A DNA stretch of 32,333 nt, from IMG/VR virus record IMGVR_UViG_3300042197_003782, positions 1 through 32,333 of that record. One strand, given 5' to 3'. The number at the start of each line of letters is the position of its first letter. The first letter of the stretch is position 1. Origin of the DNA: a virus. The translations under genes were made by a program, and so were the position numbers. The notes below the pieces were generated by a model. The model was given only the letters and a program-made list of their open reading frames with translations. It ran no database searches and was not told the origin of the DNA. This document shows, in pieces, positions 4,189-16,612 of the stretch.

Positions 4189-5568
4189 ATGACTGAAATA
4201 AACGTACCCTCGTGTCCTACTCACGGTTCTTTGCCTCGGGCTCTTCATAGTGAATCTTTCGAAGGCATTGTCCAAGTAGTTACAGAACTCATTGAAACGG
4301 TAAGTGGCGTGGGAACCATCAGCTATTCTCGTTGCCCTTACGGCTACAGCTATAACTTTGAGGGCGTTGTAAGAGCGTTAGAAGACTTAAATACTTCTAT
4401 TAGTGGCATCAATGTTGGGTCGCCTGATCCAGCCGGTAGTGGTTTGATTGCTGGTTCTGGTATTTTTGTTTCTTTTAGCGGCGGCTATGGGATCATACAG
4501 AGCCAGATTACTCAGGTTTATCCTGGTTCTGGTATTACACCTGGTTACAGCGGCGAAGGTTCAATATTCAATGTAAATGTTCTTGGTGTGCAGGGTGTTG
4601 ATGTTCTGTACAGCGGAACGTACATCACAGTTTCTGGAACTAAAGATCAAGCAGTTGCTGTTGTTAGTGGTTTGGTTGGTGGTGATGGTATTACCGTTGT
4701 CGCTAGTGGTAATACTGCTGTTATTTCGACTGATTTGATTGGTCAAGGATCTGTCGATTTTTCGTACAACGGTGCTCGTCAGGGTGTTATTTCTGGTCAA
4801 GCTCAACAATTATTAGTTGCTGGATCTGGTACAAGTGTTCGATCTAGTGGTGATTATCAAATTATTGATATTGGTGCTCTTGCAGGTAATTTTGCCAGTG
4901 TCGCATATTCTGGTTCGTTCGTTACTATCGGCGGTTCGCCTATTGCTGCTGGTTCTGGTACAAGTGTTCGCACAAGTGGTATAACTCAAATCATAGATGT
5001 TGGTGCGCTTGAAGGTGCTAACACTACAATTGTTTATTCAGGTCAGTTCTTCTCGATTGCTAGTACTGCCAGCGCCGGTGCCGCCGTGGTTACGGTTTCC
5101 GGTGATCCTGGTAATGATTTTATTGGCGGTTCCCTTTGGTTCGATCTTAATGAAGGTCGTTTATTTGTTTATGCTTCTGGTAACGGCATAACTGAACCTG
5201 ATTGGTATATCGCCAACGCTGAAGCTCTTGCGATTAAGAGTGAAGTGCCTCCATCTGGTGCTGGATTAAATGCACCACCTCTCGATGGCACTATTTGGTT
5301 TAATACTTTAATGGGTTCATTGTTTGTATATGATGCAGCAACGAGCGGATGGTATGAGTCTGCACCCTCCCGCACTCCTGTTTACGGTAATACTGCTCCT
5401 GTTGCTGCTATTGATGGCACCCTGTGGACAGATTCTACTAATAATCTTATACGTGTTTGGAATGGTACTCAATGGTCTGATGTTATTGCAAGTGGTAACC
5501 CGCCGTCGGCAGGCTTAGATAATGAAGCTGAAGGTGAGGTTATTGGCCTAATCATGGGTCTAAGCTAA
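4189..5568 (+). CDS. Tail fibre / baseplate-type structural protein with W-repeat module
   Basis: 459 residues. A purine-rich GGGAGGG lies about 12 bases before the ATG. Residues 60-290 are Gly/Ser/Val-rich with recurring YSG, SGSG and GSGTSVR patterns typical of beta-rich phage fibres; the block AGSGTSVR occurs twice, about 50 residues apart. Residues 305-435 hold three copies of a module of the form G-x-[LI]-W-x-[DN]-x4-[GN]-x-[LI]-x-V-(n)-W, as found in cyanophage structural proteins. The protein ends in EVIGLIMGLS, a C-terminal motif shared with the two repeat fibres downstream. Role in adsorption is inferred. Confidence 0.75.
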   Translation: MTEINVPSCPTHGSLPRALHSESFEGIVQVVTELIETVSGVGTISYSRCPYGYSYNFEGVVRALEDLNTSISGINVGSPDPAGSGLIAGSGIFVSFSGGYGIIQSQITQVYPGSGITPGYSGEGSIFNVNVLGVQGVDVLYSGTYITVSGTKDQAVAVVSGLVGGDGITVVASGNTAVISTDLIGQGSVDFSYNGARQGVISGQAQQLLVAGSGTSVRSSGDYQIIDIGALAGNFASVAYSGSFVTIGGSPIAAGSGTSVRTSGITQIIDVGALEGANTTIVYSGQFFSIASTASAGAAVVTVSGDPGNDFIGGSLWFDLNEGRLFVYASGNGITEPDWYIANAEALAIKSEVPPSGAGLNAPPLDGTIWFNTLMGSLFVYDAATSGWYESAPSRTPVYGNTAPVAAIDGTLWTDSTNNLIRVWNGTQWSDVIASGNPPSAGLDNEAEGEVIGLIMGLS

Positions 5569-5592
5569 CCTTGGGTGCCTTCTTGCTTACCC

Positions 5593-5712
5593 ATGGCCAA
5601 ACCTAAAACCGCTGACTTAATTGTAAAAAAATTAAAGAAAACGCATCAAGGGCAAGGACGCCACTCAAAACCTTCTCATGGCCGTAAACTCAGCCGCGGC
5701 CAAGGGCGCTAA
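5593..5712 (+). CDS. Very small basic protein (39 aa)
   Basis: ATG at 5593 to TAA at 5710-5712. The product is strongly basic, with Lys/Arg/His-rich patterns (IVKKLKKTHQGQGRHS, HGRKLSRGQGR). Its codon content is more GC-rich than its neighbours, and it fills the gap between two fibre-block genes. No clear ribosome binding site. It resembles the other small basic proteins at 13684-14510 in composition and could bind nucleic acid. May also be spurious. Confidence 0.4.
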   Translation: MAKPKTADLIVKKLKKTHQGQGRHSKPSHGRKLSRGQGR

Positions 5713-5739
5713 AGTTAATAAATAGGTCTAGGGTTAGCT

Positions 5740-6132
5740 GTGCTTTTATCTTTTGTTGCAAAACAACCTATTAATTTAGGTAACGCAGTAACCATCAGCA
5801 CGGTTACATCTGGTCAGATAATTCCAGCTAACCCTTCCGGTTTAACTTCTGCGAGTGTTATTGGAGTTTCTGTAGATACTGTAAATTCAGGAGCTCTTTG
5901 TCGAGTTGTTACTGATGCTTCGGCTTCTGTTTATACAAATCTAATTTCAGGCACTCGTTATTTTCTCAGCCCCAGTGGTGGCTATATTGTTGATTATCCT
6001 TCATATGTGGTTGAATTTAATCAACTTGGTTTAGCTCAAAACTACTTAACTCAATTAGGTGTCGCTATAAATTCAACATCTTTGCGAGTAAATCCAACTG
6101 AGCCGAAATTAGTTGTTAGTGGTTATCTGTAA
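5740..6132 (+). CDS. Small virion decoration-type protein
   Basis: 130 residues with a GTG start at 5740, supported by AGGTCTAGGG a few bases upstream. The pattern is that of small beta-rich capsid or tail decoration proteins: a strand with an IPANPSG turn, ASVIGVSVDTVNSGALCRVVTDA, then YFLSPSGGYI and a final VAINSTSL strand. The same plan (value, 'A-x-x-x-G-V', 'YYLS/YFLS') appears in the next gene, so the two are probably distant paralogues. A structural role is inferred; the specific family is not identified. Confidence 0.65.
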   Translation: MLLSFVAKQPINLGNAVTISTVTSGQIIPANPSGLTSASVIGVSVDTVNSGALCRVVTDASASVYTNLISGTRYFLSPSGGYIVDYPSYVVEFNQLGLAQNYLTQLGVAINSTSLRVNPTEPKLVVSGYL

Positions 6133-6170
6133 GACGTTGTAGAATTAGAATCAAAGTAGGGTTGTCGTCG

Positions 6171-6686
6171 GTGACAAACAGGTCGATCTTCAACCGTAAT
6201 TACACCAGTTATCAGTCGGATGGTACGACTGTATATCTGGCAAACGGTCAAGGTGTTGTTACTAATCCTGCTCCCGAAGCAACTCTTACTGCAGGAGGAG
6301 CTTTGATTGCTGGTATGTGTGTTGCCGCCAGCGGTAATTTTGTTGTTCCTGCAATCGCTTTAAGTGGGGTTACTGCTGCTCAATTTTCTCCCGTTGGGTT
6401 TGCCTCTACAGCTGCCAGCACTGGTCAGTCTGTAGTTATAAATTTAGATGGCGTTGTGACTGTTTCAGATATAAACATAACGGCTGAGTCTGCGTTAGTT
6501 CCTGGCGAATACTATTATTTATCAAAATTTCAAGGAGAAATTGTTCGTTATTCGACTGCTTCTGGAATTATTTCTGGTTCTGGGTCGAATGCTTATGCCG
6601 CATCTTCTCCTGTTGGTTTAGCACTTACTGGAACTCAATTGAGTGTTGAGATTTCACCTCCTGTTCTTCTTTATACTGGAAGTTAA
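6171..6686 (+). CDS. Virion decoration-type beta protein, paralogue-like to the preceding gene
   Basis: 171 residues. GTG at 6171 is chosen because AAAGTAGGG ends about 9 bases upstream; the in-frame TTG at 6162 touches that site directly and is unlikely. The protein has ALIAGMCVAASGNFVVPAIA, FSPVGFASTAASTGQSVVINLDGVV, then GEYYYLSKFQGEIV and a closing VEISPP strand. The 'SPVGxA...GQxVxxxxxG' arrangement is common to phage head-tail decoration proteins. It lies 11 bases before the first repeat fibre, which has an AAAGGA ribosome site. Confidence 0.65.
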   Translation: MTNRSIFNRNYTSYQSDGTTVYLANGQGVVTNPAPEATLTAGGALIAGMCVAASGNFVVPAIALSGVTAAQFSPVGFASTAASTGQSVVINLDGVVTVSDINITAESALVPGEYYYLSKFQGEIVRYSTASGIISGSGSNAYAASSPVGLALTGTQLSVEISPPVLLYTGS

Positions 6687-6697
6687 AGGATAAAATT

Positions 6698-8209
6698 ATG
6701 GCAGTACGTAGGCCGATTGTTCTTGTAAGTGGAGCTTTATCTGAGCTTCCACTTGGCGATAGCATCGTCACAACTGCTTCTGGTGGCGTTTTAACAGCAG
6801 GCAGTGGTTTAGTTGGCGGTGGGGATACTACTCAAACTATTAGGTTAGATGTTGCATTAGCTTCTTCTGCTAGTGGCCTTATTTTTGCGGGAACTACTCT
6901 TGCCGTAGATGGTGTCGCTTTAAAAAGATCTGCTGACGCTTTAGCCTCAGGTAATTTTGCTTTATCTGATTCAGCCACTGCTTTAGCTTCTGGTAATGCA
7001 GCACTTGTTCTTGGTTCTACGGCTTTAGCTTCTGGTAACGCCGGTCTTTCGGTTGGCGCTATTGCAGAGGCATCTGGTAACGCTGCGTTATTGGTAGCTT
7101 CCTCCGCTTTAAGTTCTGGTAATGCTGCCTTAATCATTGCCGACAGCGCTCTTGCATCTGGTAATGCTGCGGTGACCGATTCTGCTCGGGCTCTCGCATC
7201 TGGTAACGCAGCTTTATCTTTATCTAGTACCGCACTTGCCTCTGGTAATGCCGGTCTAGCTGATGCTGTTGTTGCGCTTGCTTCGGGTAATGCTGCTTTA
7301 GACCTTAGTAGTGTTGCACTTGCTTCAGGTAATGCCGGGCTGAGTGTTGCTGTAACAGCTTTAAGTTCTGGCAATGCTGGACTTTCGAATGCTGTTCAAG
7401 CTCTTACTTCTGGTAATGCTGCTTTAGTCGATTCCCAAGTTGCTCTTGCTTCTGGTATTGCGGCAGTATCGGTTTCTGTATCTGCTTTAGCTTCTGGTAA
7501 TGCTGGTTTAGTTTTATCTTCTCAAGCTCTTGCTTCTGGCAATGCTGCTCTTGCAGACGCAAGCCGAGCTCTTGCTTCGGGTAATGCTGCTGTTGTTCTT
7601 TCTAATACTGCTGTTGCTTCTGGCGCAGCCGCTATTGCTCTTTCAGACATTGCCCTCGCCTCTGGTTTAGCAGCTCAGACAGTTGCCGATAAAGCTTTGG
7701 CTTCCGGTAATGCTGCGTTATCTGTTTCTGTAAATGCTCTTGCTTCTGGCAACGCAGGTCTTTCTGTTGCCTCCACAGCACTTGCTTCTGGTAATGCAGC
7801 GGTATTAGTTGGTGTTAGTGCTCTAGCTTCCGGCAATGCTGGTATTTCTGTTGGTTTAACAGCTCTTGCCTCTGGTAATGCTGCTCTTGCAGATGCAGGT
7901 GTCGCCTTATCTTCTGGTAACGCTGGTATTTCTTTGGGGCTAACGGCTCTTTCTTCCGGTAACGCTGCCTTAATAACTGCAGCAACTGCACAAGCTTCGG
8001 GTGATGCAGGTCTTTCAATTGGTGCTGTTGCTTTAAGTTCCGGTAACGCTGCAATTAGCGTGGCAAATACTGCTTTGGCGTCTGGAAACGCGGCTTTAAG
8101 TATCGTTCCCGCTGCACAAGCTTCTGGTAATGCTGCTTTGGAAGTTTATTTTGCTAATCCTGGCGTATCTCAGGAAGAAGCAATAGGTTTAATTATCGCC
8201 CTTTCATAA
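6698..8209 (+). CDS. Tail fibre shaft protein with 29 14-residue repeats (copy A)
   Basis: 503 residues, ATG preceded by AAAGGATAAAATT. Residues 1-80 form a head domain starting MAVRRPIVLVSGAL-x-ELPLGDS, an opening commonly seen in phage fibre and trimeric structural proteins. Residues 81-486 are exactly 29 units of 14 residues, consensus ALASGNAALSxxxT, with no insertion or deletion. Leu/Ile recur seven residues apart within each unit, so each unit is two heptads; an alanine-rich trimeric coiled shaft is a reasonable guess. The last 17 residues end in EAIGLIIALS. It ends one base before the start of a second protein of the same design. Confidence 0.8.
   Translation: MAVRRPIVLVSGALSELPLGDSIVTTASGGVLTAGSGLVGGGDTTQTIRLDVALASSASGLIFAGTTLAVDGVALKRSADALASGNFALSDSATALASGNAALVLGSTALASGNAGLSVGAIAEASGNAALLVASSALSSGNAALIIADSALASGNAAVTDSARALASGNAALSLSSTALASGNAGLADAVVALASGNAALDLSSVALASGNAGLSVAVTALSSGNAGLSNAVQALTSGNAALVDSQVALASGIAAVSVSVSALASGNAGLVLSSQALASGNAALADASRALASGNAAVVLSNTAVASGAAAIALSDIALASGLAAQTVADKALASGNAALSVSVNALASGNAGLSVASTALASGNAAVLVGVSALASGNAGISVGLTALASGNAALADAGVALSSGNAGISLGLTALSSGNAALITAATAQASGDAGLSIGAVALSSGNAAISVANTALASGNAALSIVPAAQASGNAALEVYFANPGVSQEEAIGLIIALS
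6938..8155 (+). repeat. 29 tandem 42-bp coding repeats (copy A)
   Basis: 1218 bases encode 29 units of 14 residues. The DNA core is a variant of GCT-TCT-GGT-AAT-GCT; codons vary freely between units while SGNA is conserved. The array is therefore old and kept by protein selection rather than freshly duplicated. Confidence 0.85.
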
Positions 8210-8210
8210 G

Positions 8211-9725
8211 ATGGCAACCTACCGCAGTCTTGTATTTTCCGGCGGATTTATTTCTGAAACAACCAGTGCTGACGATATATCTGTTTTAGGCGATTTAATT
8301 ACAGGCAGTGGCCTTGGTGGCCAAGTCTTGCCTTTAGGTGTTAATAATTTTGTATCTACAAGTATAAACTCTGTAGCTATTTCTAGCGGTTTAGTTATAA
8401 ACTCTGATGGAAAATTAAGTTTAGATGGTAAAGATTTAGCGGATTCTCAAACCGCTTTAAATTCCGGTGTGGTCGCAAGTGCTGCAGCTGCTGTTGCTTT
8501 AGCTTCCGGTGTCTCAGCTTCAGATCTTTCAGTATCTGCTTTATCCTCTGGTAACGCAGCTATTAGTGTATCTTTAGCTTCTTTAGCAGCAGCCAATAAT
8601 GCTATAAGTTCAGGTTTATATGCGACTGTATCAGGAAATTTATCAATATCTACCTCACTTACAGCTTTAAGTTCTGGTAATGCAGCTTTAGTCGATAGTT
8701 CACAAGCATTAGCTTCAGGCTTATCTAGTGTCGTAACAGCTAACACAGCTTCAGCGTCTGGTTATGCTGCTTCTTTTATTGCAGGTTCTGCTTTAAGTTC
8801 AGGTAACGCTGCTCTGTTTGATTTTAATTCAACTGTTTTATCTGGAACTCAGGCAGTTCTTCTATCTCAAGCTGCTATAGCTTCGGGTTTTCAAGCAGAA
8901 CAAATTAGCGTTTCTGCTGTTGCCTCTGGATCAGCGGCGACTACGTCGTCTTCTTTAGCTCTTGCTTCTGGTAACGCTGCTCTTCTAGACGCAACTATAG
9001 CGTTTGCTTCTGGCACTGCTGCTGTTACAGCTGCAAATATAGCGTTTGCTTCTGGCACTGCTGCTGTAGTAATTGCCAGTACAGCGCTTGCTTCTGGTAA
9101 TGCAGCCTTATCTAATTCTGTAGATGCTCTTCAAGACTGCGAAGATGCTGTTTTAGGTAATCAATTTGTTCAAGTTTTGTGTCGGGATGCCATCTTAACC
9201 AGTAATCGAGCAATTGCTTCTGGAAACGCTGCAGTTGGTATCGCACCTGCAGCTATTGCATCAGGTCAAGCCTGTTTTGCGCCTGCTGCGATTGCCCAGG
9301 CATCGGGTAACGCCGCTTTGAGTGCAGCTGTCCCAGCCGTGGCATCCGGCAACGCTGCTATTGAGGTTGGTTTAACAGCGCTTGCCTCTGGGAATGCAGC
9401 ATTAAGCTTAATTTCAAGTGTACAAGCATCTGGTAACGCTAGTTTATCTGTAGCTACTACTGCTCTTACTTCTGGTAATGCTGCTATTTCAAGAGCTGTA
9501 CAAGCACTTTCATCAGGTAACTCTTCTATTTCAGTATCTTTAAACTCTCAGCAAAATTCTAATAATGCTATTTCGTCTGGTTTGTATGCAGCTGTCTCTG
9601 GAAATGCTGCAGTGGCCGCCGGTGTTACAGCTTTAGCTTCCGGTAATGCTGCATTAAGTGTAATTATTAATAATTTACCTGTAAATGCTGATACTCTTAT
9701 AGGTTTGATAATGGGTTTAACCTAA
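8211..9725 (+). CDS. Tail fibre shaft protein with 29 14-residue repeats (copy B)
   Basis: 504 residues, starting one base after the stop of copy A. The head domain (1-81) differs from copy A but also begins with a short MATYRSLVFSGG strand. Residues 82-487 are again exactly 29 14-residue units in register, then 17 residues ending LIGLIMGLT. Units 17-18 have lost the SGN core and carry two cysteines (DCED...LCRD); unit 20 carries another. A special three-unit block (units 3-5, with NNAISSGLY) is repeated as units 26-28, near the other end of the shaft. Probable partner or alternative of copy A in the same fibre. Confidence 0.8.
   Translation: MATYRSLVFSGGFISETTSADDISVLGDLITGSGLGGQVLPLGVNNFVSTSINSVAISSGLVINSDGKLSLDGKDLADSQTALNSGVVASAAAAVALASGVSASDLSVSALSSGNAAISVSLASLAAANNAISSGLYATVSGNLSISTSLTALSSGNAALVDSSQALASGLSSVVTANTASASGYAASFIAGSALSSGNAALFDFNSTVLSGTQAVLLSQAAIASGFQAEQISVSAVASGSAATTSSSLALASGNAALLDATIAFASGTAAVTAANIAFASGTAAVVIASTALASGNAALSNSVDALQDCEDAVLGNQFVQVLCRDAILTSNRAIASGNAAVGIAPAAIASGQACFAPAAIAQASGNAALSAAVPAVASGNAAIEVGLTALASGNAALSLISSVQASGNASLSVATTALTSGNAAISRAVQALSSGNSSISVSLNSQQNSNNAISSGLYAAVSGNAAVAAGVTALASGNAALSVIINNLPVNADTLIGLIMGLT
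8454..9671 (+). repeat. 29 tandem 42-bp coding repeats (copy B)
   Basis: Same unit size and number as copy A but more diverged: only about half the units keep SGNAAL. The register is preserved throughout, including the Cys-containing units 17-18. Confidence 0.8.
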
Positions 9726-9735
9726 TATTTTTTGT

Positions 9736-9768
9736 TTGACAAAATAAACATTTTGAATCTGCTATAGT
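9736..9768 (+). promoter_or_regulatory. Candidate promoter before the second tail-gene group
   Basis: TTGACA at 9736-9741 and an extended -10, TGCTATAGT (hexamer TATAGT at 9763-9768), lie in the 74-base gap after copy B. The spacing is 21 bases, longer than the usual 17, so the extended -10 may do most of the work. The next start codon is at 9800 with GGGAG upstream. Confidence 0.45.
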
Positions 9769-9799
9769 TAAAATATACCTTTGGGAGTAGTTTAATTTT

Positions 9800-10117
9800 A
9801 TGGCTACTTTTAGTCACTTAGGTAACTCAGGCTTTGACGCAGCTGAAATAGACATTTTTACCTCGACTTCTGACTCTACTATTGTATTGAGTATTTTATG
9901 TGCAAATATTAGTGCTTCTCCTACTGATGTTACGCTTAGACATGAAAATGCTTCATCTGTTTTAATAAATTATGTTGCTGATGCAATTGCCATTCCTGCT
10001 AGTTCAAGTTTAGAACTTTTAAGTAATAAATACATAATGCCTAGTGGAAATAAATTTACAATAGAAACATCGGTAAGTGGCTCTTTAAGCTATAGTCTTT
10101 CTTACGTCGAAGTTTAA
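9800..10117 (+). CDS. Small beta-rich structural protein
   Basis: 105 residues, ATG at 9800 with TTGGGAG upstream. The sequence alternates strands and Ser/Thr-rich turns: TIVLSILCANIS, DVTLRHEN, INYVADAIAIPASSSLELL, and a closing SYSLSYVEV. The 'xxANxS...DVTLxxxx...Y...IPAxSSLELL' pattern is typical of small phage neck or tail-tip proteins that adopt a jelly-roll-like fold. First gene after the candidate promoter and one base before the next gene, so likely co-translated with it. Confidence 0.65.
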   Translation: MATFSHLGNSGFDAAEIDIFTSTSDSTIVLSILCANISASPTDVTLRHENASSVLINYVADAIAIPASSSLELLSNKYIMPSGNKFTIETSVSGSLSYSLSYVEV

Positions 10118-10118
10118 T

Positions 10119-10775
10119 ATGGACAAAAAAGATTATTCTGATTGTTTATTTAGTTATAACAATCAAACTCCTGAATATTTACCGAGTAAGTTACGTTTAC
10201 CTGATGGTTCTGTTCGTCGTTCTCATTACATATCTATAGAAGAGTTAAACACACTAGGTTATAAAGGTCCTTTTTGCGTTCCTGAGTGTTGTTCTACCGA
10301 TAAAGTTACCTGGTGTTGTGTCTCGGGTAATTATGTTGTGTCTTGTAAAAACAACGAAGAAATTGCGGCTGATAATGATAAATTTATTCGTGCACACTTA
10401 CAACAAACTTTACTCACGTCGTCTGGAATTTATTTTGATACAGATTTGACCCCTGAAGGTATAAAAGCTTATGAAAATTTTTACGGAAACATTCTTTACG
10501 TTTTGCAGTTTAAAAATATAATTTCAGAGGCTGACATTCCAAAGTTAGAACTTCCTTGGAATTATTCTTATAGTTATATGAAAAGTTTGTATGATACTAA
10601 AGTAAATTCAAGTTTTAAATTTTGGAAATTAACTTATGAATTATGCGGTGTTGACGAGTCTAAATGTTTTGTGGAAACTTCTGGATTTTTTAAAATACCT
10701 TCAGATTGGGTGTTAGGATCTGGTGAGCCTTATCCGCTTAACACCTGTCCAAGTGGACATTGTTACGACCTTTAA
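10119..10775 (+). CDS. Cysteine-rich tail-associated protein
   Basis: 218 residues. It begins MDKKDYSDCLFSYNNQTPEYLPSKL-like sequence, followed by RLPDGSVRRSHYIS and a cysteine-rich segment CVPECCSTDKVTWCCVSGNY (about residues 53-72). It ends in CPSGHCYDL. The 'YSDC...LPDGS.R' opening is one I associate with cyanophage tail proteins. The many cysteines may bind metal or stabilise an extracellular structure. It lies between small tail genes and the collar proteins, which supports a virion role. Confidence 0.6.
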   Translation: MDKKDYSDCLFSYNNQTPEYLPSKLRLPDGSVRRSHYISIEELNTLGYKGPFCVPECCSTDKVTWCCVSGNYVVSCKNNEEIAADNDKFIRAHLQQTLLTSSGIYFDTDLTPEGIKAYENFYGNILYVLQFKNIISEADIPKLELPWNYSYSYMKSLYDTKVNSSFKFWKLTYELCGVDESKCFVETSGFFKIPSDWVLGSGEPYPLNTCPSGHCYDL

Positions 10776-10777
10776 TT

Positions 10778-11845
10778 ATGGCTAAGCATTACGGTAATTG
10801 GGTTTCTGGCGACCCTGATATTGTTCCTAGTAATAGCGTTCAATATGGAGTGTGGAACAGTAACGAGCAATATAGGCAAAAAGGTGCAGTTGGTATTTGG
10901 CCTGATCTTACTACGTCTACTAGTTTTGAAACTCCATTAGGTTCTATTGTTTTTGCTTTGTCTTCTGGTGCTTTAGATCAAGCTTTAAGCACTGGAGGTT
11001 ATTTAGTACCTTCTGGACAAGCAATATCGACATCTACTTATTCCGGTTTATTCAGTGCTTACGGATATACCTTTGGCGGCTCTGGCTCTACTTTTAGACT
11101 TCCAAATTTGTCTACAAATTTTCTTTATCTTAAACCTACCGTAGCCAGCGGCGTTGTTCCTAGTGGTCAATTTAGTGGCAAAATTCCAACCCACTCCCAT
11201 ACTTATTCAAGACGTACTGGTGCTACAGGAGGAAGGGGTCAGGGCCTCGGAGGCTGTGTCCGTTCTTTAAATGATAATACTGCATCTTTAGGTATTAGTA
11301 GTTCAGGAACAGCAGTAAATAGAGCAGCTTCTTTTGTTGTTTATCCTCTATTAGTTGTAAACCCTATAAATGAACCTCCTTTTGGTTGTGTTTTTACTAT
11401 TTCAGCTCCTCTTGCTGAAGATGTTTTAGCAGGTGCTTTGTCTTTTCCTGTTGTTATACCAAGTGGTCAGACAGTTTCGCGTTTTGCCAACCCGAAGACT
11501 TTTAATACTTTGAGAACATTATATGGATCTGGTAATGGTTCTACTACGTTTCAATTGCCTGATTTAAGAGGTTCGTTTCTTGAGATGGCTAATAGGACAA
11601 CAAATATTCAATTATCTGGACAAACTACTTTAAATGTTGATACGTTTGTTCAACATACCCACAATGGTATTGCAAATGCCGCTAGGTCTTCTGACGGCGA
11701 TCCAGGTGGAGGTGGTTTCTGCTCAGGTGCTACTACAGGTGCTGGTGTGTTTACTACACCTGCTACAGGTTCTGCTAGTGTTGGTGATGGACTTGAAAAT
11801 AGACCTTCTAATTATTCTGTTCTATTTGTTATTAAAGGAGGTTAA
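10778..11845 (+). CDS. Short tail fibre protein with two phage collar domains
   Basis: 355 residues from the ATG at 10778; an in-frame TTG at 10760 lies inside the previous gene and is rejected. Two collar-type modules are visible. The first (about residues 50-110) has PLGSIVFAL, GYLVPSGQAIS, then GGSGSTFRLPNLS. The second (about residues 205-275) has PSGQTVSR, TLYGSGNGSTTFQLPDLRGSFL. The GSTFxLPDLRGxF pattern is the hallmark of the tail collar family (PF07484). The C terminus is Gly/Thr-rich, with QHTHNG resembling the metal-binding HxH of T4 gp12-type tips. Confidence 0.8.
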   Translation: MAKHYGNWVSGDPDIVPSNSVQYGVWNSNEQYRQKGAVGIWPDLTTSTSFETPLGSIVFALSSGALDQALSTGGYLVPSGQAISTSTYSGLFSAYGYTFGGSGSTFRLPNLSTNFLYLKPTVASGVVPSGQFSGKIPTHSHTYSRRTGATGGRGQGLGGCVRSLNDNTASLGISSSGTAVNRAASFVVYPLLVVNPINEPPFGCVFTISAPLAEDVLAGALSFPVVIPSGQTVSRFANPKTFNTLRTLYGSGNGSTTFQLPDLRGSFLEMANRTTNIQLSGQTTLNVDTFVQHTHNGIANAARSSDGDPGGGGFCSGATTGAGVFTTPATGSASVGDGLENRPSNYSVLFVIKGG

Positions 11846-11848
11846 ATC

Positions 11849-12364
11849 ATGTTAGGACAAATTGTTTATTCTACTATTTTTAGAGGCTCAAGTTTTACAA
11901 GTAACGGCGTCACTTTTGCGCTGTGCAACGGACAGGTTGTTAACAGAAGTACATATGCAGATTTGTCCACTATCTGGCCTAGTGGCCAGTATGGTAGCAC
12001 AAACAGTGTTATTGTTTTACCTAATTTTAGTGCTGGTTATTACTTTAGGGGCGTCAATTTAGGCACTAGTAGAGATCCTTCTGTTGCAAGTCGCACTGCA
12101 CCGTCAGGAATAGGACCCACAGCTTCAACAGTAGGATCGTTTCAAACGGGTGCTATGCGTTCTCACACACACGCTAGCGGAACAGTATTAACTTTAACCC
12201 CTACTGCCGTAAATGGAGGTGAATTTAATACACAAACTTCTACAACATCAGATACTTCAACAGGCACTTTTCCTGTTACTTCTGGTTACACAGCTTCAGG
12301 GACTACAGGAAATGATTTTGATTTAAATCATCATACCTTTTATCCTTACATTCAAATAACTTAG
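11849..12364 (+). CDS. Small collar-domain tail fibre protein
   Basis: 171 residues starting three bases after the previous stop (AGGAGG ribosome site before the ATG). A single collar module covers residues 1-70: FALCNGQVVNRSTYADL, SGQYGSTNSVIVLPNFSAGYYFRG. Then MRSHTHASG gives an HxH pair, and the protein ends NHHTFYPYIQIT. It looks like the C-terminal tip module of a larger fibre, standing alone. It converges with the oxygenase gene, sharing four bases. Confidence 0.75.
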   Translation: MLGQIVYSTIFRGSSFTSNGVTFALCNGQVVNRSTYADLSTIWPSGQYGSTNSVIVLPNFSAGYYFRGVNLGTSRDPSVASRTAPSGIGPTASTVGSFQTGAMRSHTHASGTVLTLTPTAVNGGEFNTQTSTTSDTSTGTFPVTSGYTASGTTGNDFDLNHHTFYPYIQIT

Positions 12365-13011
12365 TTAAGCTTTAAATTAAATCCCGCTAATTTATTTGGA
12401 TTACCTACTGTTCCGTTAAAAAAACTATTAAAACTTATTGTTATTCTAGATTCTTCTTTATTCATATTTTCATCTACAGAATGAATCATTGATGAAGGAA
12501 ATATAATCATTGTTTGTTTTTTTGGTTTGTGTTTATAAATACTTTCAAAATATTGATTATTTATATCAATATTTTTTGAAGGGTAAAAAATTTTAGGAAG
12601 AGCGTAGGGATTTTCTTTACTAAACCAAGTTGATCCACTCGTTCCTGAAATATAAATTATTCCACTCAAAATAGAACAGGGGTGTGAGTGAGCATGATGC
12701 CATTGCATATATTCACTTTTATTACACCACATTAAACATACTTTAAGCTCAGATGCGTACTTACTATACATGACATCTTCACACACTTTTTTTAGTTGTT
12801 CATTTATGTAATCAACTATTAAAAACCATTTTTTATTAGTGTGTAGAGAGTTTTCGCCCGATGTGGATACACCATAGTAAATCTCCCCCTCACCTCTGTT
12901 TTTTTCATTTTGGAAATCTAAATCATTAATATTTTTTAACATTTTTGCGTAAATATCGTTTGGCACATCAAATTCGTACAAAGTTGAAGGCAGAATTTCT
13001 AATTTTTTCAT
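12361..13011 (-). CDS. 2OG-Fe(II) oxygenase-like protein (PF13759 type)
   Basis: 216 residues, ATG at 13011. The central part matches the family closely: WHHAHSHPCSILSGIIYISG (first iron-ligand region), a downstream KKQTMIIFPSSMIHSVDEN (second His) and ESRITISFN (the Arg that holds 2-oxoglutarate and the closing strand). The family is frequent in marine and cyanobacterial viruses; its substrate is generally unknown, with protein hydroxylation the usual guess. It lies antisense within the tail (+) block, so it is transcribed separately. No truncation is evident. Confidence 0.75.
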   Translation of the reverse strand: MKKLEILPSTLYEFDVPNDIYAKMLKNINDLDFQNEKNRGEGEIYYGVSTSGENSLHTNKKWFLIVDYINEQLKKVCEDVMYSKYASELKVCLMWCNKSEYMQWHHAHSHPCSILSGIIYISGTSGSTWFSKENPYALPKIFYPSKNIDINNQYFESIYKHKPKKQTMIIFPSSMIHSVDENMNKEESRITISFNSFFNGTVGNPNKLAGFNLKLN

Positions 13012-15370: not shown

Positions 15371-16612
15371 ATGAGGATTTCGTCTCGAGGATTAAACCTC
15401 ATAAAGAAGTTTGAAGGACTTCGTTTAATCTCTTACTTGTGTAGTTCAAATGTCCTCACCATAGGGTATGGGCATACCGGTTCTGATGTAAAACCAAATA
15501 TGAAAATAACCGAAGAACAAGCAGAAGCATATTTAATTGATGACGTGGTTAGTAGTGAACAATGTGTTAGTTCTTTTGTTTACGCAAAAATTAATCAAAA
15601 TGAATACGACGCATTAGTTTCTTTTGTATTTAATGTTGGTCCTACTGCTTTTATAAATTCAACACTTCTTAAATTACTTAACGGCGGCGCCGACCGAAAA
15701 ATTGTTGCCTCGGAATTTTCTCGTTGGGTTAAAGGGGAAGGAAATAAAGAAATACCGGGTTTAATCAAACGACGTGAACAAGAGCGTAAGCTGTTCTTGG
15801 AAAAAATTAAACATCCTCTCTTGTCAAAATCAATTCTGGCTAAGCAGGATACTTGGCTTAAGAAAAAGCCAATAGACAGTGCTGCTCTTCTGGCTGAAGA
15901 AAAATTATTCGTACCGAAAGGATCCGCGTGGCAGTGGACAGAAATTCATATGTATGCCGGGCAGGTTCATCAACGAGTTTATTTGGAAGCTCAACCTGAA
16001 ACAGAGTGGTGGGTTTTTCCGGATCATTGGAAAATAATTAATGATATAGATGTAGTCGTTGAAGAAAAAGCTGTGTCTACCGAAGTTAAATTGTCTGTAC
16101 CATATTATTCACAAAGAGATAATTATAGAGATCCTATGAGGACTTGTTTTTCCAGCAGTTGCGCTATGTTGCTGAGTGGTTTGGAACCTAACGCTATCGA
16201 CTCAGATAATGAGTATATAAAAGTAGTTTATAAATATGGCGATACTGTTGTAGCTGCTAATCAAATAAAAGCTTTAAAAGAATTTGGAGTAACAGCATCA
16301 TTTATTCAAACAGGAAGTTGGGCAGATATTGAATCTTTATTGTTAAAAGGTGTTCCTGTTCCGATTGGTATTCTTCATAAAGGTCCTGTTACTGCACCTG
16401 TTGGGGGTGGTCATTGGATTTGTTGTGTTGGTATAAGTTCGGATAAAAACCACATTATTGTTCACGATCCTTTTGGAGATTTAGATCTCGTGAAAGGTAC
16501 GTATTTATCTGCGGATGGAAAATATAAAAAATATTCAAAGAAAAATTTAGGTCCTCGCTGGCTTGTGGAAAGCGATCGCAGTGGTTGGTTTATTAAAACT
16601 ACAGCCTGGTAA
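15371..16612 (+). CDS. Two-domain endolysin: GH24 lysozyme plus C39-like cysteine peptidase
   Basis: 413 residues. Residues 5-145 are a GH24 muramidase: E15, C24 and T30 sit in the E-8-(D/C)-5-T spacing of T4-type lysozymes, with FEGLRL and TIGYGHTG around them; Cys replaces Asp at the second position, as in many phage enzymes. Residues 158-225 look like an SH3-like linker (DTWLKKKPIDS, LFVPKG). Residues 238-413 resemble a C39-type papain-fold peptidase: SVPYYSQRDN, catalytic-like C259, GGGHWICCVG with H348, and HDPFG with D366. It would cut both glycan and peptide bonds. No signal peptide, so a holin is needed. Confidence 0.85.
   Translation: MRISSRGLNLIKKFEGLRLISYLCSSNVLTIGYGHTGSDVKPNMKITEEQAEAYLIDDVVSSEQCVSSFVYAKINQNEYDALVSFVFNVGPTAFINSTLLKLLNGGADRKIVASEFSRWVKGEGNKEIPGLIKRREQERKLFLEKIKHPLLSKSILAKQDTWLKKKPIDSAALLAEEKLFVPKGSAWQWTEIHMYAGQVHQRVYLEAQPETEWWVFPDHWKIINDIDVVVEEKAVSTEVKLSVPYYSQRDNYRDPMRTCFSSSCAMLLSGLEPNAIDSDNEYIKVVYKYGDTVVAANQIKALKEFGVTASFIQTGSWADIESLLLKGVPVPIGILHKGPVTAPVGGGHWICCVGISSDKNHIIVHDPFGDLDLVKGTYLSADGKYKKYSKKNLGPRWLVESDRSGWFIKTTAW

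Follow-up and report, generated by a model that had tools for sequence, protein, structure and literature searches.

Why should two neighboring genes of one phage encode shafts with exactly the same number of repeats? The window—the whole of the 32.3-kb viral record analyzed here—contains two such open reading frames (ORFs), A and B, with 1 base between them. A consists of a head of 80 residues, 29 units of 14 residues, and a tail of 17; B consists of 81 residues, 29 x 14, and 17; neither array has an insertion or deletion. The pair lies among tail and virion genes, with collar-domain genes nearby and, in the related contig G001, portal and capsid genes upstream. The features concerned are as follows.

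4189..5568, + strand: SG-rich protein, 459 aa, sharing the C-terminal tail of A and B (EGEVIGLIMGLS); putative third partner
6162..6686, + strand: protein of 174 aa directly preceding A; conserved marker, with a weak decoration-protein-like match
6698..8209, + strand: shaft protein A, 503 aa; ORF of 29 units
6698..6937, + strand: head of A, 80 aa, MxxRRPxVLVSGxxSELPxGD...; putative virion-anchoring domain, an N-terminal module conserved across the family
6938..8155, + strand: shaft of A, 29 x 14 residues, from unit count and profile
8156..8206, + strand: C-terminal tail of A, 17 aa, ending EAIGLIIALS; conserved in the twin clade (phages with both A and B)
8211..9725, + strand: shaft protein B, 504 aa; ORF starting 1 nt past the A stop
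8211..8453, + strand: head of B, 81 aa; paralog of the A head, the B heads forming one starred clade
8454..9671, + strand: shaft of B, 29 x 14 residues, from unit count and profile; units 4, 17, 18 and 27 without in-phase SG
9672..9722, + strand: C-terminal tail of B, 17 aa, ending DTLIGLIMGLT
10760..12364, + strand: two tail-collar-domain proteins (10760-11845 and 11849-12364; Pfam PF07484, PHROG tail families); candidate distal parts
12361-13011, − strand: 2OG-Fe(II) oxygenase (Pfam PF13759/PF13640)

A sequence-only reading had counted 29 contiguous units and a 17-residue tail in both proteins. A profile trained solely on three other phages, then applied to the window, confirms this, finding 29 units in A (score 593, shuffle maximum 9) and 29 in B (296, shuffle maximum 16). 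The consensus unit is A-L-A-S-G-N-A-A-L-x-x-[SAG]-x-x. The SGN break earlier ascribed to every unit is there in the consensus, but 4 of the 29 B units have no SG motif in the expected position and are recognized by register only. The 14-residue unit itself survives as a description of the 29 in-register repeats, but not as the step by which arrays change. Steps of 7 residues are present in the relatives L112, L120 and L090, and SG-to-SG distances in proteins of single-gene phages are mostly multiples of 7 (97 of 106, a few of which lie outside the shaft), so the repeat quantum is 7 residues, not 14. In B of phage L011 (13952-15457), MAFFT places indels of +7 and −7 residues within units 24-28; this pair would be a compensated heptad shift, with total length kept. 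The hydrophobicity of the shaft has power at periods 7 and 2, and little at 3.5, so that the two heptads per unit of the earlier reading, if taken as alpha-helical, find no clear support in it.

The fold of the shaft, whether an alpha-helical coiled coil or a beta-solenoid or triple beta-spiral, is harder to read. AlphaFold2 renders A as beta structure, with 11-residue strands and SGN turns (mean pLDDT 65), and B as long helices (pLDDT 44); because these two models conflict, we set them aside as evidence of fold. AlphaFold2 is reported to produce false beta-solenoids on repeats, and such models are unreliable (PMC11795689). Foldseek returned no match to the A model at E<=0.001, and a sequence search of solved structures returned nothing.

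A and B are end-to-end paralogs, for their heads are homologous (hhalign 98.4%, 43% identity over 74 columns) and their tails are alike (IGLIxxLS). Their units, however, are at matching positions no more similar than when shuffled (p about 0.7). Since positional similarity is absent, the equal count is not a leftover of recent copying; unit-by-unit orthology, sought in order to date the duplication, likewise gave no signal. A length change might, conceivably, have been copied from one gene to the other by gene conversion, the arrays being adjacent and their units similar. Such concerted evolution would be very improbable, however: positional A/B similarity is lacking both in the phage with 29 units in each gene (29/29) and in the one with eight (8/8) that were compared, and B arrays are internally far more diverged than A arrays.

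The window operon and contig G001 share about 96-98%, making G001 a near-identical relative. The major capsid protein of G001 is 69.5% identical to that of Synechococcus phage S-EIV1 (KJ410740), and the portal 47%. By these homologous proteins, and via G001, the window phage is assigned to an S-EIV1-related lineage; its host is likely to be cyanobacterial, to judge from the kinship. Beyond these two genes, the virion block of S-EIV1 resembles that of G001 in its proteins and in their order. Unlike the window phage, it yielded no SGN/14-residue shaft genes, and has a TG-rich fiber-like protein at 78221..731 instead. No Pfam family scored above cut-off for A or B, and the PHROG tail fiber match for A reached an E of 0.083 only, placing neither protein in a curated family. 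They are best read as a variant of fiber protein, not described before, in the S-EIV1-related lineage.

The neighborhood has features of its own. Of the two collar-domain proteins, the 10760 protein matches PF07484 at 1e-19 and the 11849 protein at 6e-4, below the curated cut-off. The 2OG-Fe(II) oxygenase gene adjoins the fiber genes in the phages checked (L009 18144-19329, L010 15819-16517, L011 18845-19447, L041 18177-19398, L048 15147-15806), some genomes having two, and its product might be a candidate hydroxylase of the Asn-rich shafts. The SG dipeptide is about 2-4x over-represented in proteins of the virion block (window 4189-11845: 4189, 5740, A, B, 9800, 10119 and 10760), where GS is mostly not enriched; among the other proteins tested, polA alone is similarly SG-enriched. 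Further along, at 15371-16612, lies an endolysin in which a phage lysozyme (PF00959) is fused to a C39-like peptidase domain (PF13529).

Used as baits, A, 4189 and the 6162-6686 protein drew in more than 60 viral contigs. The 10119 bait found no relatives, GTDB genomes searched with the 6162 bait gave none, and a phage collection queried with DNA and with the B and collar proteins gave no useful relative. Members of the family share one architecture—a conserved head of 28-85 aa, followed by n units and by either the short tail or larger C-terminal modules—and the A-type head is common to members that differ in shaft and C-terminal domain. Repeat counts are 29/29 in ten distinct twin phages, some with as little as 64% identity in the 6162 marker; 8/8 in four (L146, L147, L148, and L073, the last being the same as L041); and 3/3/3 in ten phages with three paralogs. 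The 17 single-gene phages, by comparison, have ten different counts (3, 4, 5, 6, 7, 7.5, 8, 9, 12 and 13.5), which differ even at 96% marker identity (8 vs 7.5). Chance agreement occurs in 12 of the 136 pairings of unrelated single-gene arrays (about 9%); such pairings are not independent of phylogeny. In the 29/29 phages A is constantly 503 aa and B 501-504 aa, with variation confined to the head; among four compared, the units are colinear, and identity in register exceeds that in every shifted register for all pairs. Across 14 phages, the gap from A to B ranges from −1 to +3 nt.

Co-selection of shaft count—equal within genomes, different between them, and labile where there is one gene—is well supported by these comparisons. 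Selection on shaft length was proposed earlier from the window alone, and the check then named for it, equal counts within genomes and different counts between them, has gone mostly in its favor, save in one phage. In L079, which lies outside the A/B clade, duplicated head-shaft genes have 3 and 4 units, and this counts against a universal equal-count rule.

How strongly does constancy in the twins and triples depart from the behavior of single genes? On a phage tree built on the 6162 marker protein, the singles call for 13 or more changes of count along a branch length of 4.64 substitutions per site, the twins for 2 over 2.66 (1 if the 8s form one clade), and the triples for 0 over 1.31. At the singles' rate, by our arithmetic, about 7.5 changes per gene would be expected in the twins and 3.7 in the triples. 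DNA homogeneity was considered as the cause of single-array lability and rejected, there being no clear difference between arrays: identity from unit to unit averages 0.57-0.60 for A and 0.56-0.68 for the singles. With arrays about equally homogeneous, a tendency to slip does not alone explain why the singles are labile. Could the counts be products of metagenome assembly, with repeats collapsed or expanded? Several single-gene counts come from metagenome assemblies with similar units, and some of these arrays (L111) contain identical 42-nt units, so certain single-gene counts could be wrong. Most twin units clearly differ in DNA, however (in the tested arrays identity averages 0.45-0.60 and peaks at 0.62-0.91), and 29/29 was recovered from many independent samples. 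Artefact is very improbable, the least probable of the explanations we consider.

Among the triples, paralogs of L097, L098, L103-L105 and L110 carry C-terminal modules of about 500 aa with repeats like YDSTNNKVVVAY..GTVSGTSISFG (propeller-like). In L092, L097 and L078 about 125 aa stand in place of the C-terminal modules, and the shaft is unchanged. To judge from these proteins, C-terminal modules of the triples are swapped or lost while the shaft stays constant.

The twins come in two lengths. In a tree of the heads, all A (including A of L073) and all B (including B of L073) form separate starred clades, supported at 99/98. The split between A and B is therefore older than the difference between 8 and 29 units, and both genes shifted by 21 units together. 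This bears on another account, that equality was inherited from a duplication at fixed count, with repeat change rare and matching not selected. In its favor, the twins form a single clade and so do the triples, so that their stasis amounts to few observations; but the same 21-unit change would then have to occur in both genes, and change is frequent in single-gene arrays about as homogeneous as these. We regard inheritance as improbable. The twins being a single clade, only one coordinated count change, or at most two, has been seen.

If A and B were molecular rulers, another component might be expected to change with them. Reciprocal-best ORFs of an 8/8 phage (G002) and two 29/29 phages were compared in length, from mechanical ORF lists in which some pairs are spurious. 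A has 209 residues vs 503 (a difference of 294) and B 207 vs 502/503 (295-296); these are the largest changes. The next structural gene is 4189, with 383 residues vs 449/466 (66-83). The capsid protein of G002 is 94-96% identical to those of the 29/29 phages and most virion orthologs are similar in length; a few further ORFs, outside the fiber block, also differ. The suggestion of a ruler finds no support here, for no other ortholog compared changes by the same amount as A and B.

The 4189 protein is of interest for another reason. Its homologs end in the shared tail (GLIxGLS) in every twin genome that has a complete homolog, and lack it in 8 non-twin homologs, in a survey that included L147-L150. 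This presence in twins and absence in others suggests that A, B and 4189 may form a three-protein assembly. In two 8/8 phages, L147 (1246-2334) and L148 (1866-2954), the 4189 homolog holds 3-4 shaft units of its own ahead of the common tail.

What arrangement would hold two repeat counts to the same value? We lean, with moderate confidence, toward A and B being paralogous shaft proteins of one virion appendage, lying side by side, whose counts must match and change together. Made from adjacent and probably translationally coupled genes, each would be a shaft protein of one fiber or spike, built of an anchor at the N terminus, the repeats, and a short docking tail at the C terminus. The head would anchor the protein on the virion, and the tail would dock it to a distal partner that A and B share, perhaps together with 4189. 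A and B would run parallel and meet common partners at the proximal and the distal end, whether as chains of a single heteromeric shaft or as closely paired shafts of equal length. A mismatch would leave one tail short, and so repeat numbers would have to match, and could change only jointly. We infer virion membership, head anchoring, tail docking and the physical pairing of A and B, and take their place on the virion from the gene neighborhood. In a stricter form, A and B would be the two kinds of chain, long and diverged, that make up a necessarily heteromeric shaft, in register, capped or joined by 4189 through its tail, with matched changes alone permitted; this we offer tentatively, as somewhat doubtful.

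A and B might, instead, form two separate homo-oligomeric fibers that both bridge the same two virion layers, from collar to distal plate, for example. Equal counts and a tail in common with 4189 would suit that arrangement too, separate heads could dock at different sites, and triples with three different C-terminal modules all keep 3 units. Besides 4189, however, no compared virion ortholog of the 8/8 phage shifts comparably in length, and nothing else that might set such a gap was seen. We judge two separate fibers rather unlikely. Direct lateral pairing of A and B is narrowly favored over independent fibers that bridge a single gap, since an equal change was seen in no virion protein besides these two.

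Several familiar systems resemble this one in part. The long tail fiber of T4 and gp17 of T7 are modular, with an N-terminal anchor, a repetitive shaft, and a C-terminal module. A and B share the layout and adjoin tail-collar-domain genes, but no sequence relation to those fibers was detected, and A and B have no tip domain, just the 17-residue tail. In lambda gpH and YscP, which are tape-measure or ruler proteins, length is apparently selected, as it is in A and B; here, in contrast, a tail or needle of matching length was not identified, and the change is common to two genes and equaled in none of the remaining proteins compared. Adenovirus fibers, too, have shaft repeats. HAdV-52 is reported to have two fiber genes and fibers of unequal length, one long and one short (PMC4335501). 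Two-fiber adenoviruses resemble the window phage in having two different fiber proteins in one virus. Their fibers differ from A and B, which are strictly equal in length, and no homology is implied.

Repeat number that is free in single-gene phages, but fixed at one shared value in the twins and triples, may serve as an evolutionary read-out of physical partnership. It makes length matching between paralogous fiber chains testable, and it names candidate partners—A, B and 4189—among the virion proteins of this lineage, most of which have no annotation. It suggests, too, a general route by which paired or heteromeric fibers might be spotted by sequence alone.
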